Source of the DNA: Methylocella silvestris
GTDB lineage: Bacteria; Pseudomonadota; Alphaproteobacteria; Rhizobiales; Beijerinckiaceae
DNA: 64,000 nt
Assembly (NCBI RefSeq): GCF_002891535.1
Contig: NZ_PDZR01000001.1
Span: forward strand, 620,001 to 684,000
Direction of reading: 5' to 3'
Position 1 is the first letter of the stretch; each line of letters opens with the position of its first letter. Made by a program: the position numbers and the translations under genes. Below, in pieces: positions 14,639 through 50,044 of the stretch. The notes under the pieces were generated by a model, which saw nothing but the letters and a program-made list of their open reading frames with translations, made no database searches and had not been told where the DNA came from.

Positions 14639-15900
14639 CGTCGGCGGCTGCTTTGACGCCGCAGGAGCGCTTCGCCTTTCTGCGGCTCTATCGCAGCGAA
14701 ACGATTGGCCCCCGCTCCTTCGTGGCCTTGCTCGCCCGATACGGGTCGGCCCAGGCGGCGCTTGAGGCCTTGCCGGGCGTCGTCGCCAGCGGCAAGGCGG
14801 GCCGGCCGATCGCCCTTGCCCCGATCCATGAGATCGAGGCCGAACTGGAAGCGATCGAGCGCGCCGGCGCGGCGCTGATCTGTTTGCCCGAGCCCGATTA
14901 TCCGGCGCGGTTGCGGCAGATCCATTCGGCTCCGCCGCTGCTTACGGTGCGCGGCGAATACGCCTGCCTGAAACGGTCCAAGGTCGCGATCGTCGGCTCG
15001 CGTAACGCGTCGGCGGCCGGCCTCGCCTTTGCGGAACAATTGTCGCGCGGCGTCGCCCGCGCCGGGCATGTCATTGTTTCCGGCCTTGCGCGCGGGATCG
15101 ACGCGCGGGCGCATCAGGCCGCGCTGGCGACCGGGACGATCGCCGTGCTCGCCGGCGGCCTGGGCAATATTTATCCGGCCGCACACAGCGAACTGATGGA
15201 GCGTCTGCTCGAACATGGCGCTGCGATGAGCGAAATGCCGTTTGGATGGGAGGCGCGGGGGCGCGATTTTCCACGGCGCAACCGCATAGTCTCGGGTTTG
15301 TCGCGCGGCGTCGTCGTGATCGAGGCGGCGCGCCGTTCGGGCTCGCTGATTACGGCGGGTTTTGCTGCGGAGCAGGGGCGGGAAGTGTTCGCCGTGCCGG
15401 GATCGCCGCTCGACCCCCGCGCGGAGGGTCCGAATCAATTGCTGCGGGAGGGCGCGACGTTCTGCACAAGGGCCGAGGATGTGCTCGACGCGCTGGCCCG
15501 GCAGGATCTTCTGCCCGCCGCCGATTTCAGCTTCGCTGAAGCTGACGGGGCGTCCTATGAGCCCTATTGGGACGAACTCGAACTGCCGGATATTTTGGCG
15601 AAGAATGACGGCGCCGCCTTTGGCGCGGCGGGGCAAATGACGCCGCGGCAAGCACCCGCTTCATTGCGGCGCGCCGCGCCGCCGCCGGCCGACGAGCCGC
15701 GGCAGGAGAGCGCCCCTCAACCTTCGCGCGAACAAACCTTCGCCCGGGTGATCGAACTTTTGGGGCCGGCGCCTGTCTCGGTCGATGAACTCGTCCGCGC
15801 CTCGGAGGCGCCGGCGCGGGAGGTCCGGGCGATTCTTTTCGAGCTCGAGCTTGACGGCCGGCTCGAGCGCCACGGCGCCGATCTCGTGTCGAAGATCTGA
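14635..15900 (+). CDS. dprA: DNA-processing protein DprA (Smf)
   Basis: The 421-residue protein has an N-terminal SAM-like region, the Rossmann-type core ([17 protein letters not shown], then [13 protein letters not shown], then [19 protein letters not shown]) at about 115-260, a disordered Ala/Pro linker, and a C-terminal winged helix (about 365-421, ending [12 protein letters not shown]). DprA binds incoming single-stranded DNA and loads RecA during natural transformation and is widespread in non-competent bacteria too. ATG at 14635 overlaps the plsY stop. It converges on accC with a 43-bp gap. Confidence 0.93.
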
Positions 15901-15943
15901 AATCCGGGATCTGCGGCCGGGCCTTACTCCGCCCCGTTCAAGC

Positions 15944-17302
15944 CTACTCCGTCCCGTCCATGCCACCGTCGGCCAGAAATTTCTCCAGCCAGTGGATGTC
16001 GTAAAGCCCGTTCTGGATGTCGGAATTGCGGACCAGCGTCTGGAACAGCGGGATCGTCGTGTCGATGCCGTCGATGATGAATTCATCGAGCGAGCGGCGC
16101 AGCCGCATCAGGGCTTCGTTGCGGTTGCGGCCATGCACGATCAGCTTGCCGACCAGCGAATCATAGGTCGGCGGGATCGTATAGCCGGCATAGACAGCGC
16201 TATCGACGCGAACGCCAAGGCCGCCCGGCGGATGGTAATAATTGATCAAGCCGGGCGAGGGGCGGAAGGTCGCCGGATGCTCGGCGTTGATGCGGCATTC
16301 GATGGCGTGTCCGTTGAAGATGACGTCGTCCTGCGTCAGGGTCAGCGCAGATCCCGCCGCGATCTTGATCTGCTCATTGACGAGATCGACGCCGGTGATC
16401 ATCTCGGTCACCGGATGCTCGACCTGGATGCGCGTGTTCATCTCGATGAAATAGAATTTGCCGTCTTCATAGAGGAATTCGATCGTGCCGGCGCCGGCAT
16501 ATTGCAGTTCGCGCATGGCCGCGGCGCAGATCTCGCCGATCTCCTTGCGCTGCGACTCATTCAGCGCCGGCGAGGGGCCTTCCTCCCAGACTTTCTGGTG
16601 CCGTCGCTGCAACGAGCAATCGCGCTCGCCAAGATGGATCGCGCCGCCACGCCCGTCGCCGAGAATCTGCACCTCGATGTGGCGGGGTTTTTCGAGATAT
16701 TTTTCAAGATAGACGGAATCATCGCCAAAGGCCGATTTCGCCTCCATGCGCGCCGTCTCCAGCGCCGAGGCGATGTCGTCCTCGCTGAACGAGACCTTCA
16801 TGCCGCGCCCGCCGCCGCCCGCCGCCGCCTTGATGAGCACGGGATAGCCGAGTTCTTTCGCCGCGGCCTTCGCCTCCGCCTCATCCGTGATGGCGCCGGC
16901 CGAGCCCGGCACGCAGGGGATGCCGAGCCGAAGCGCGGTCCGCTTCGCCTCGATCTTGTCGCCCATCAGTCGGATATGCTCCGGCTTTGGCCCGACGAAG
17001 ACGATGTGATGCTCCGCGAGAATTTCCGCAAAACGGGCGTTTTCCGACAAAAATCCGTAGCCGGGATGCAGCGCCTCAGCCCCGGTGATCTCGCAGGCAG
17101 CGAGGAGCGCTGGAATATTCAAATAGGATTCGCGCGCGGGCGGCGGCCCGACGCAGACGGATTCGTCGGCGAGCTTGACATGCATTGCTTCGGAATCGGC
17201 GGTCGAATGGACCGCGACCGTCGCGATGCCAAGCTCCTTGGCCGCGCGCAGAATCCGCAACGCGATCTCGCCGCGATTGGCGATGAGGATTTTTTCGAAC
17301 AT
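15944..17302 (-). CDS. accC: Acetyl-CoA carboxylase, biotin carboxylase subunit
   Basis: A 452-residue biotin carboxylase starting MFEKILIANRGEIALRI. The ATP-grasp glycine loop GGGGRGMKV is at about 163-171, followed by HIEVQILGD and the ECRINAEHP biotin-site segment. It carboxylates biotin on AccB using bicarbonate and ATP, feeding malonyl-CoA production for fatty acids. It lies 24 bp downstream of accB, within an aroQ-accB-accC operon on the minus strand. Confidence 0.96.
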   Translation of the reverse strand: MFEKILIANRGEIALRILRAAKELGIATVAVHSTADSEAMHVKLADESVCVGPPPARESYLNIPALLAACEITGAEALHPGYGFLSENARFAEILAEHHIVFVGPKPEHIRLMGDKIEAKRTALRLGIPCVPGSAGAITDEAEAKAAAKELGYPVLIKAAAGGGGRGMKVSFSEDDIASALETARMEAKSAFGDDSVYLEKYLEKPRHIEVQILGDGRGGAIHLGERDCSLQRRHQKVWEEGPSPALNESQRKEIGEICAAAMRELQYAGAGTIEFLYEDGKFYFIEMNTRIQVEHPVTEMITGVDLVNEQIKIAAGSALTLTQDDVIFNGHAIECRINAEHPATFRPSPGLINYYHPPGGLGVRVDSAVYAGYTIPPTYDSLVGKLIVHGRNRNEALMRLRRSLDEFIIDGIDTTIPLFQTLVRNSDIQNGLYDIHWLEKFLADGGMDGTE

Positions 17303-17326
17303 TTTAATCCACCCGGCGCGCGGCGC

Positions 17327-17791
17327 TCATTCGATGACGAAGAGCGGCTGGCCGTATTCGACGGGCGAGCCGTCCTCAACGAGGATGCGGGTGACCGAGC
17401 CGGCGCGCGGCGCGACGATCTCGTTGAACGTCTTCATCGCTTCGACGAGAAGAAGCTTGTCGCCCGCCTTCACGACGGAGCCGATCTCGACAAAAGGCGC
17501 GGATTCAGGCGACGCCCGCCGATAGGCGGTCCCGACCATCGGCGATTTGACGACGCCGGCGATTTCGATCTCCGCGGCGACCGGCTCGACGGCCACGGTC
17601 GCCGTCGCCGGAACATGCGCGGGAGCGAACTGGCGCGCGATCCTGATCTTCATATCGCCATGGGCGATCTCAATCTCGGAAAGGCCAAGGCGCGTCGCGA
17701 TCTTGGCGAGCGCCTCGACGAGCTCGGTGTCGACGCCGACGTCTTGCGCAGGCGCCGCGGGTTTCGGCCCTGTATATTTCATTTTCTTCAT
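17327..17791 (-). CDS. accB: Acetyl-CoA carboxylase biotin carboxyl carrier protein
   Basis: A 154-residue carrier. The N-terminal part is followed by an Ala/Pro/Val linker and the C-terminal biotinyl domain, in which VEAMKTFNEI holds the lysine to be biotinylated. Its start codon overlaps the aroQ stop (ATGA), so translation is probably coupled. It acts with AccC, encoded immediately downstream. Confidence 0.95.
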   Translation of the reverse strand: MKKMKYTGPKPAAPAQDVGVDTELVEALAKIATRLGLSEIEIAHGDMKIRIARQFAPAHVPATATVAVEPVAAEIEIAGVVKSPMVGTAYRRASPESAPFVEIGSVVKAGDKLLLVEAMKTFNEIVAPRAGSVTRILVEDGSPVEYGQPLFVIE

Positions 17792-18234
17792 CTTTCGCTG
17801 ACGGTTGTGAGAGCGATCAAGGCGTCGAGGGCGAGCGTGTAGGACAAGACGCCGAAGCCCGAAATCACGCCCTCGGCGACGGGGGCGATATAGGAGTGGC
17901 GACGAAACTCCTCGCGGGCGTGGACATTGCTAAGATGCACCTCGACGACCTTGGCCTTCGCGCCCTTGATCGCGTCGTGAAGACCGATCGAGGTGTGCGT
18001 CAAGGCGCCGGCGTTGAGGATGATCGGCTCGCCGGCAAGTCCCGCGTCCTGTACCCAGGAGATGAGGTCGCCCTCGTGATTGCTCTGGCGGAAGCGGAGC
18101 GTGACGCCGCGCTCGGCGCAGGTCGCGGCGAGGCGCGACTCAATCGCGGCGAGCGTCTGCGCGCCGTAAATCTCCGGCTGCCTCGATCCGAGCAGATTGA
18201 GGTTTGGCCCGTTCAGGCAATGGACGGTTTTCAT
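17788..18234 (-). CDS. aroQ: 3-dehydroquinate dehydratase, type II
   Basis: A 148-residue type II enzyme: NGPNLNLLGSRQPEIYG near the N-terminus with the catalytic Arg/Tyr region, RQSNHEGDLISWVQDA, and the later HLSNVHAREEFRRHS. It dehydrates 3-dehydroquinate in the shikimate pathway. The frame is open upstream to 18408, but MKTVHCLNGPN at 18232-18234 is the conserved start. It is the first gene of the aroQ-accB-accC cluster, an arrangement common in alphaproteobacteria. Confidence 0.95.
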   Translation of the reverse strand: MKTVHCLNGPNLNLLGSRQPEIYGAQTLAAIESRLAATCAERGVTLRFRQSNHEGDLISWVQDAGLAGEPIILNAGALTHTSIGLHDAIKGAKAKVVEVHLSNVHAREEFRRHSYIAPVAEGVISGFGVLSYTLALDALIALTTVSER

Positions 18235-19076
18235 GAAAGACTCGAAAGGGCGCGCAAACGTCCGAAGCGGCAATCCATAACCGGGATCAAAAAACAAGGG
18301 AAGCCCGCCGGAGTCATCGGCGCCGGCCGATCCTGGCGCCTCGACAAAAAATGCGCGCATGGGCCTCGCTGTGGAAACCGCGTGCGGAGCATAGAGGCAG
18401 ATAAACATTAAAATTATGATGCAAGATTGAAAATAATATCCCTATATATTCGAGACAGATGAAAAAAATCGTCAAAAATATAAGTATATTATAAGTTTTT
18501 TGTCAAATTTATTATAAACGTGTTGCATATTTATATTAATTTTTTGTGATTGACACAAATATATATTTTCTAATGGCGCATTCTCGCGATGCGGCCCTTC
18601 ATAGAGTCGCTGCCTCGACCATATAGTTCCGATGGGCGTCAGCGGATGGAGCCAATTTCCGTCGCAGACCCTTTTCCCTCAGTCATCTACTCGCTCGAAA
18701 TCCGCTGTTTCATTTGAGCCGGCTCGAACAACTTGTGCAAAACCCTCTCGCAGCGCGCCCGACCGGCTTTCCTGCGCTTGTTGGCTCTGGATTTGGCGTG
18801 ACGAGCCGGGCGCATGTCTTCTGGGCGTTTCAAAAGCAGGCGAGCGGGACGGGAGGTTCTTGGGGGGACTCTCGCCGCATTGTTCGACGATTTCAGGGCG
18901 GGACGCGGTTCGCCGTCTGTCATGCTTTGCCTTGCCGATAAGATCGGCGCGAACCTCTCGCGCGTTTCCGGCTCGCGAGAGGTCCGACAGGCCGTCGCTC
19001 GGCCGCCGGACCTTGCAGATAGCCCGGTAAAATTGCATTTGCGTTCTACGCCGCAATGACTATAGTCCATCGACGC
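18235..19076. other. Long intergenic region with AT-rich island upstream of secE
   Basis: About 840 bp with no gene I can name. Bases 18409-18590 are extremely AT-rich against a GC-rich genome and include TTGACA at about 18550. Bases 18600-19076 return to normal GC and hold a perfect 10-bp inverted repeat (ACCTCTCGCG/CGCGAGAGGT, about 18953-18983). Several 70-130 codon frames exist on both strands, but none looks protein-like. The tRNA-Trp gene often found upstream of secE is not here. See the findings for a possible RNA gene. Confidence 0.5.
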
Positions 19077-19114
19077 GGCGCGTGGCCCTTAAGGCTCCGC
19101 GCCCTGATTTTTTT
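19077..19114 (+). terminator. Candidate rho-independent terminator upstream of secE
   Basis: GGCGCG (19077-19082) pairs with CGCGCC (19098-19103), with a second inner GCC/GGC stem, and seven T residues occupy 19108-19114. It would end a plus-strand transcript arriving from 18.6-19.07 kb, where no protein gene was recognised. Confidence 0.55.
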
Positions 19115-19249
19115 GTGGCAGGCGGCCAGCCGCGCTGGCTTGGGGTTCGTCGAAAAGGCCGGCTCCGTCTTCCTGTCGCCCTGTTGACAAGCGATTCAAT
19201 CCAGACCGCTCGGCGGTTTGGACGTTTCGCGCAGAGGTCTGAAGTTAAA

Positions 19250-19441
19250 ATGGTAAATCCCTTCCAGTTCATTCAGGAGGTTCGTACCGAGGCCGGCAAG
19301 GTGACCTGGCCGACGCGGCGCGAGACCATGATCACGACCGGCCTTGTTATTCTTATGGTCCTGTTCGCAAGCCTTTTCTTTGTGGCGGTCGATCAGACGT
19401 TGCGATTCGCCGTGACCCTGCTGATGGGTCTTGGACGTTGA
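19250..19441 (+). CDS. secE: Preprotein translocase subunit SecE
   Basis: A 63-residue protein with the conserved amphipathic segment (FIQEVRTEAGKVTWPTRRET) followed by one membrane helix, the short single-TM form of SecE. It is an essential part of the SecYEG channel in the inner membrane. The frame is open upstream to 19082, but the conserved start is ATG 19250. nusG follows at 33 bp, the classical arrangement. Confidence 0.95.
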   Translation: MVNPFQFIQEVRTEAGKVTWPTRRETMITTGLVILMVLFASLFFVAVDQTLRFAVTLLMGLGR

Positions 19442-19473: not shown

Positions 19474-20004
19474 ATGAGCATGCGCTGGTACATCGTCCAC
19501 GCCTATTCGAACTTCGAAAAGAAGGTCGCAGAATCAATCAAGGAGCAGGCGGCGCAGCGCGGCCTCGCGGCCAAGTTCGAGGAGATCCTCGTGCCGACCG
19601 AGCAGGTCGTCGAGGTGCGCCGGGGCCGCAAGATCAATTCGGAGCGCAAGTTCTTTCCGGGCTACGTGCTTGTAAAATGTGATCTTTCTGACGATATCTA
19701 CCATCTCATAAAGAACACGCCGAAGGTCACCGGCTTCCTTGGCGCTGACAAGAAGCCGATGCCGATCTCCGACGCCGAGGCGGATCGCATCAAGGGGCAG
19801 GTCGCCGACGGCGTCGAGCGGCCGAAAGCGTCGATCTCGTTCGAGATCGGCGAGACCGTGCGGGTCGCCGACGGACCTTTCGCCTCCTTCAACGGCACTG
19901 TCGAGGAGGTCGACGAGAGCCGCTCGCGGGTCAAGGTCGCCGTTTCGATCTTTGGTCGCGCCACGCCGGTGGAGCTGGAATACGCTCAGGTCGAGAAGGT
20001 CTGA
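19474..20004 (+). CDS. nusG: Transcription termination/antitermination protein NusG
   Basis: A 177-residue protein starting MSMRWYIVHAYSNFEKKVAE, with the N-terminal RNA-polymerase-binding NGN domain (PGYVLV at about 63-68) and the C-terminal KOW domain (about 122-177). It links RNA polymerase to Rho or to the ribosome. I chose ATG 19474, which has GGAAG 9 bases upstream, over the in-frame codon at 19438 inside the secE end. Confidence 0.96.
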   Translation: MSMRWYIVHAYSNFEKKVAESIKEQAAQRGLAAKFEEILVPTEQVVEVRRGRKINSERKFFPGYVLVKCDLSDDIYHLIKNTPKVTGFLGADKKPMPISDAEADRIKGQVADGVERPKASISFEIGETVRVADGPFASFNGTVEEVDESRSRVKVAVSIFGRATPVELEYAQVEKV

Positions 20005-49967: not shown

Positions 49968-50044
49968 GGCGGAGTAGCTCAGCCGGCTAGAGCAGAGGAA
50001 TCATAATCCTTGTGTCGGGGGTTCGAGTCCCTCCTCCGCTACCA
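49968..50044 (+). tRNA. tRNA with CAU anticodon, probably tRNA-Met
   Basis: A 77-base gene folds into a full cloverleaf: acceptor GGCGGAG with CTCCGCT (first pair G-U), D arm with AGCTCAG, anticodon stem GAGGA/TCCTT with loop ATCATAA (anticodon CAT), T arm GGGGG-TTCGAGT-CCCTC, and an encoded CCA at 50042-50044. CAT could be elongator Met or Ile2 (with lysidine); I favour Met by overall likeness. It lacks initiator-type features. It forms the left border of the phage-like region. Confidence 0.93.

Follow-up and report, generated by a model that had tools for sequence, protein, structure and literature searches.

A conserved hairpin and U-tract in the secE-nusG leader of the Methylocella/Methylocapsa group, a putative promoter-proximal attenuator

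The window analyzed here, a 64-kb stretch of DNA, is part of a 4.28-Mb genome (G000) in 79 contigs, and the region of interest lies between the oppositely oriented aroQ and secE genes (Table 1). Pfam matches back the assignments of SecE, NusG, L11, dehydroquinase II, and a biotin domain around this region. Among named relatives, the NusG proteins nearest to that of the window are those of Methylocella tundrae (98%) and Methylocapsa palsarum (95%); "genus" in all counts below refers to the Methylocella/Methylocapsa group. An open frame of 685 codons on the plus strand (15785 to 17842), antisense to accC and accB, is probably a shadow frame such as GC-rich coding sequence produces.

Table 1. Genes and sequence features around the secE leader (positions in the window)
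Feature	Position	Strand	Evidence
accB and aroQ	upstream of the region of interest	-	
AT-rich island	18371-18611		composition and promoter scan; putative role
Cupin-like gene remnant	18507-18987	+	blastn and tblastn against G009
Putative secE promoter (-35-like TTGCGT, 19039-19044; -10-like TATAGT, 19061-19066)	19034-19066	+	conservation; putative function
Leader hairpin, GGCGCG-U-GGCC / CUUAA / GGCU-C-CGCGCC	19077-19103	+	fold, CM, pair counts
CTGA, then T7: U-tract and terminator-like 3' end of the predicted ~40-nt RNA	19104-19114	+	conservation
Rest of the secE leader, not conserved	19115-19249	+	identity 0.28-0.45 over 19114-19223
secE	19250-19441	+	Pfam SecE, 1.2e-17
nusG	19474-20004	+	Pfam NusG, 4.6e-30
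rplK	after nusG	+	

The original prediction placed an RNA gene of about 500 nt in this gap, running from a promoter in an AT-rich island through a body without a credible protein to a terminator-like end. The island, given there as 18409 to 18590, is indeed the lowest-GC place of the window: only 18371 to 18611 drops below 30% GC (170-nt sliding windows, step of 10), and the minimum, 19%, is reached in the 170 nt starting at 18401. The TTGACA that was to serve as its promoter is present on the plus strand (18550 to 18555), but the promoter scan pairs no -10 with it. The best promoter-like sites at the island, 18506 to 18477 (11/12) and 18539 to 18511 (10/12), are on the minus strand and point toward aroQ, and weaker plus-strand sites were found at 18408 to 18437 and 18598 to 18627 (9/12 each); these four sites in or beside the island compare with 0.8 in shuffles of the scanned region. 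The site at 18477 to 18506 is a near-consensus TTGACA-N18-TATATT on the minus strand, ~240 nt before the aroQ start at 18234. The island is probably also the former upstream region of a decayed cupin-like gene.

A remnant of this cupin-like gene was found where the body of the RNA gene had been placed. Positions 18201 to 18987 align at 70% with the close relative G009, which has at the same place an intact open reading frame (ORF) of 363 amino acids from its first ATG, and 18507 to 18957 matches this ORF in three different frames, with stops. The remnant corresponds to approximately the first 160 codons, frameshifted and interrupted by stops, and the remaining part is absent; downstream of the shared part, ~650 bp in G009 correspond to ~27 bp in the window. 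The G009 protein matches Pfam Cupin_8 with an E value of 5.7e-4 (20.3 bits, under the curated cutoff of 27.4), and M. tundrae and M. palsarum have relatives of its ORF at the corresponding position (53 and 40% identity, respectively). The earlier statement that the region encodes no credible protein is right insofar as none is intact, because the gene has decayed. The perfect 10-bp hairpin noted in the body exists, with arms from 18953 and 18974, but it lies inside the remnant and is not kept in G009. Such 10-bp repeats occur at seven separate places (11 positions) in the window, against a mean of 1.7 in 20 block shuffles, and the hairpin is therefore not plain chance. On neither strand does the stretch from 18590 to 19117 fold more stably than its shuffles (z of -0.54 and -1.23), and outside its last ~80 nt a lengthy match, at about 70%, was found in only 1 of the 60 relatives' genomes, that of G009.

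The conserved part of the region, 19034 to 19114, ends 135 nt before the ATG of secE. In an alignment of 12 genus members (without G014 [L003], which is nearly identical to L116), identity per 10 columns is 0.30, 0.37, and 0.51 over 19004 to 19033, rises to 0.80 at 19034 to 19043 (-35), and is 0.61 between the promoter blocks, 0.75 at 19054 to 19063 (-10), and 0.33 at 19064 to 19073, between the -10 block and the hairpin. The blocks of the hairpin then reach 0.85, 0.78, and 0.90 and that of the U-tract 1.00, before identity falls to 0.28 to 0.45 past 19113, up to 19223. The U-tract block, CTGATTTTTT (19104 to 19113), is thus 100% identical in all 12, against 28 to 51% in the flanks of the hairpin leader, and every one of the 12 has a run of at least six T. 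The hairpin begins ~10 nt after the -10, and the fold of 19074 to 19114 has an energy of -19.1 kcal/mol. A generic terminator scan did not list the stem with its T7 (19108 to 19114), probably owing to the mismatch within the stem. The terminator-like stem and T7 of the original prediction are therefore conserved features, and they have a conserved promoter-like block of their own directly before them.

When the DNA of 60 relatives was searched, 15 genomes, including the window's own, gave matches, 14 of them around 19029 to 19124 and the fifteenth (G031) over 30 nt elsewhere; among the 14, only G009 matches much beyond this block. Thirteen of the 15 genus genomes in this search match at the conserved block. 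G012, which is 77% complete, gave no match there, and G013 (L021) has kept the hairpin and lost the T-run. Conservation of 18600 to 19110, by which the RNA gene was to be recognized in relatives, is accordingly found for the last ~80 bases, with covariation of pairs; the rest is matched at length in G009 only.

A CM, R1, was built from 45 family leaders (set A1) chosen by the pattern GGCGCG...CGCGCC. In the window's genome, R1 has one strong site (50.5 bits), and the next of the scored candidates has 22.8 bits. Among 119 family genomes, 85 contain some match at an E value of ≤0.1, many of them weak and scattered, and each of the 45 best matches (E ≤ 2.1e-7, from 45 different genomes) precedes nusG in the same orientation. 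For matches checked down to an E value of 1.7e-4, 51 of 55 were found upstream of nusG on the same strand, at 223 to 487 nt, one antisense match (G073) being excluded from this check; many of the matches come from the training set, so that their scores are high by construction but their positions are not. R1 scores above 48 bits at 18 of 80 named NusG loci, among them five labeled Methylocystis (L128, L132, L134, L136, and L150). Five Bosea loci score 32 to 38 bits, and 14 of 15 loci labeled Methylobacterium have no match at an E value of ≤1, the other one having 0.075.

A broad spread of the exact R1 model was not found in the class, where 3 of 190 genomes match at an E value of ≤1e-5, two of them of the same family, nor in the order, with matches at ≤0.001 in 27 of 249 genomes, five of the same family. 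The third match in the class, L206 (G546), stands before a gene other than secE, whose ribosome-binding site and ATG are immediately preceded by a GC-rich hairpin and its T-rich tail. Six strong CM matches outside the family that were inspected lie away from secE-nusG. Apart from two chance matches of 9 residues, neither NusG nor SecE was found at these loci, and the hits look like terminators of the usual kind or hairpins between genes; by itself, the hairpin sequence is therefore not special.

The 67 leaders compared below are the forward matches from 94 loci searched (68 matches, one of them antisense). An unbroken run of at least five T is present in 31 of the 67, and at least five T within 8 nt in 55; the U-tract is weaker outside the genus. 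The -10 search in these leaders was confined to 0 to 14 nt before the hairpin, so that the spacing found is partly imposed, and the alignment of the 12 genus members is relied on for it instead. In the CM alignment, which has 68 rows including the antisense match (L031), 66 of them distinct, and which leans to its model, 26 cells are changed on both sides of a pair, compared with 3.2 in shuffles, and the upper-stem pair 12-29 occurs as A-U, G-C, G-U, and U-G. The first alignment gave 21 such cells, compared with 2.7 in shuffles. The invariance of the six core pairs in the family sets is no evidence, because A1 was selected by a pattern requiring those pairs.

Seventeen leaders of other families in the order, including those of Sinorhizobium meliloti and Rhizobium tropici, have a hairpin at the same place, with 5 of 10 pairs changed on both sides and 11 double-changed cells, compared with 3.9 in shuffles; the T-run after it is at most 2 in 10 nt in all 17. 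This set was drawn from 48 leaders, a group of 20 named ones, and a further list, and was selected for having the hairpin: 20 were chosen by eye for a visible -10-like motif and hairpin, L096 was not found, 19 were folded, and 17 were aligned, L102 and L194 being dropped as near-duplicates. Among the 20 named leaders, no hairpin was seen by eye in those of Afipia, Rhodopseudomonas, Ancylobacter, and most Methylobacterium. Because the order leaders have the hairpin without a T-run, the terminator-like tail probably arose after the hairpin itself. The weaker U-tract outside the genus, its loss in G013, and its absence from the order set together suggest that the element may not have served termination originally. 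A long hairpin shortly after a -10-like motif was observed in the secE leaders L181, L187, L192, L193, and L194 (Rhizobiaceae and Phyllobacterium), which share similar sequence around the hairpin and have no T-run, and Rfam gave no match at the hairpin of L181, L187, or L193.

We interpret the element, from comparative sequence evidence, as the promoter and 5' leader of secE-nusG, which would act as a promoter-proximal attenuator yielding an RNA of ~40 nt and a read-through mRNA, and we put the probability of this reading at roughly 65%. A GC-rich hairpin with a U-tract lies in the 5' leader, and both are conserved in the orthologous leaders of 12 genus members, the exception being G013. RNA polymerase would start a few nucleotides before the hairpin, 6 to 9 nt after the -10, and the hairpin would form as soon as it is out of the polymerase; some polymerases would then stop at the U-tract and release the ~40-nt RNA, and the remaining ones would continue into secE-nusG. 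Since only the terminator-like end and its promoter are conserved, the likely small RNA of the locus is one of ~40 nt made from the secE leader, which comes near to a case that the original prediction had named against itself, in which the transcript continues into secE and is simply its usual leader.

Nothing conserved that might serve as an antiterminator was seen downstream of the hairpin in 12 genus members, to 19223. With the hairpin at the very 5' end and nothing conserved downstream, an upstream sensor or a conserved antiterminator is unlikely, so that the extent of read-through would depend on a protein that acts on the hairpin or the polymerase, NusG and/or NusA being the most plausible. 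Feedback of NusG or NusA on the secE-nusG attenuator is a guess, which we offer tentatively. A bolder proposal, to be taken as speculation, is that an uncatalogued secE-nusG 5' hairpin, widespread in Hyphomicrobiales, became a NusG-sensing (or NusA-sensing) attenuator in Beijerinckiaceae; termination ~40 nt from the start site of nusG's own transcript would then vary with the level of NusG, and the released ~40-nt RNA might also work in trans.

Other explanations have to be weighed against this attenuator. We give hardly any credence to an independent RNA gene of ~500 nt from about 18590 to 19114, for which the AT-rich island with its weak plus-strand sites, the 10-bp hairpin, and a real terminator-like end might be cited: its TTGACA is without a -10, its body is no more structured than shuffles, and the only lengthy match among the 60 relatives, that in G009, is open as a protein gene. 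A gene remnant beside a genuine leader can thus pass for a single long RNA gene. It also seems improbable that the hairpin simply terminates transcription of a gene upstream of it, tRNA-Trp or the cupin-like gene, and only happens to be close to secE. Such genes do occur there, with tRNA-Trp upstream in 20 of the 67 leaders on the same strand (and in 1 on the opposite strand, the upstream DNA being short in some), tRNA-Trp adjoining secE in most order-level loci tested, and the cupin-like gene pointing at the hairpin in G009, L116, and L117; however, the conserved promoter-like block stands directly before the hairpin, and the hairpin and a T-run of 6 to 8 are retained in all six genus loci in which the nearest identified upstream gene is divergent. 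This neighbor, 111 to 365 nt away, is SpoU-methylase-like in L007, L008, L011, and L012 (with a Pfam match just under the cutoff) and aroQ in L006 and L014, the upstream genes sought being aroQ, the methylase-like protein, the cupin-like protein, and tRNAs only; the longest same-strand ORF wholly within the gap has 61 amino acids in L006 and at most 37 in the other five. A codirectional gene with no promoter between it and the hairpin, as expected of a 3' terminator, was thus not found. On the downstream side, the ATG of secE was located in 61 of the 67 leaders, with the end of the hairpin 45 to 149 nt before it, and the shortest of these distances leave little room for another promoter.

The main rival to attenuation is that a 5'-terminal hairpin protects the secE-nusG mRNA from decay, with a U-tract that is incidental or a pause site only. 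Protection of mRNA by ompA-like 5' hairpins is a known kind, and it may be the ancestral role here: the hairpin starts close to the predicted 5' end of the RNA and is found with compensatory changes, but without a T-run, at the same place in the 17 order leaders. Pure stability would not need a U-tract, yet no other 10 columns of the leader are as conserved in the genus as the block that contains it (100% in the 12 members aligned), so that we consider protection alone unlikely. We hold it very improbable that the inverted repeat acts as DNA, as an operator for a dimeric repressor at the start site. In favor of an operator, the aligned family sets show no variation in the core arms GGCGCG/CGCGCC, though the first set was selected for them; against it, the upper stem contains G-U pairs and exchanges of A-U and G-C, the lower stem also varies in this way across the order, and a U-tract is attached.

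The putative attenuator resembles the rimP-leader in its conserved G-rich/C-rich stem and in its place before an operon with the gene of a Nus factor (Naville and Gautheret 2010, PMC2965389). As described there, the rimP-leader, which precedes rimP-nusA-infB, is a short conserved terminator with the stem GGGc...gCCC, which in most species is the sole element of the leader; its recognition by a termination factor was proposed, with NusA as the best candidate, and no antiterminator was visible (PMC2965389). The element of the window differs in its operon, secE-nusG, and in its stem, GGCGCG...CGCGCC, and is not a rimP-leader; the main text of PMC2965389 makes no mention of secE or nusG. The predicted terminator near the start of the mRNA of an elongation-factor gene is also reminiscent of the Escherichia coli greA leader (GraL), for which a terminator a few nucleotides after the mRNA start, RNAs of 37 to 59 nt, and autoregulation have been described (PMC6829880). 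This likeness is one of layout; the gene there is greA instead of nusG, and its regulation was reported to be unaffected by any Nus factor (PMC6829880). The predicted short RNA from an mRNA leader would likewise be similar to leader transcripts of S. meliloti, in which 379 leader-derived short RNA candidates were read as processed or prematurely terminated mRNA (PMC2873474). The main texts of the S. meliloti and agrobacterial transcript maps (PMC2873474, PMC3616915, and PMC10469942) do not name secE or nusG, nor does that of a Term-seq study of Methylosinus (M. sporium 5), in which 62 3' ends were reported within 5' UTRs (PMC12403871). NusG has been reported as an intrinsic termination factor in Bacillus subtilis (PMC8060035), and autoregulation was not found in the text of that paper.

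At gathering score, the sole Rfam 15 match in the window is a tRNA at 49968, and in the loci of 18 relatives an Rfam search at an E value of ≤1 gave none at the leader and, elsewhere, tRNAs and weak matches far below the gathering scores. The Rfam scan suggested for the predicted RNA gene thus assigned no family to the leader, and a catalogued sRNA family (Rfam 15) was rejected, with no match at gathering score. The absence of RNase P, tmRNA, and tRNA-Trp from the locus, earlier judged by eye, was confirmed with Rfam and ARAGORN, neither of which found a tRNA-Trp, and a remnant of tRNA-Trp was thereby ruled out. A riboswitch or T-box was rejected as well, since the hairpin, ~10 nt after the -10, leaves no room for an aptamer and has no Rfam match. 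In the full-text literature, no paper on a secE-nusG leader hairpin was among the matches listed, and a search by phrases for a leader of secE returned 0 papers. The leader hairpin of secE-nusG appears to be uncatalogued, while the kind of attenuator to which we assign it is already known from the rimP-leader and GraL.

How cells control the amount of the universally conserved elongation factor NusG has, to our knowledge, been little described outside a few models. The natural leader variants with and without a U-tract offer a direct test of self-control by termination. A variant of another kind was observed in L014 and L117, which have ~20 extra nucleotides between the -10 and the hairpin and a second -10-like motif, as if the promoter had been doubled.
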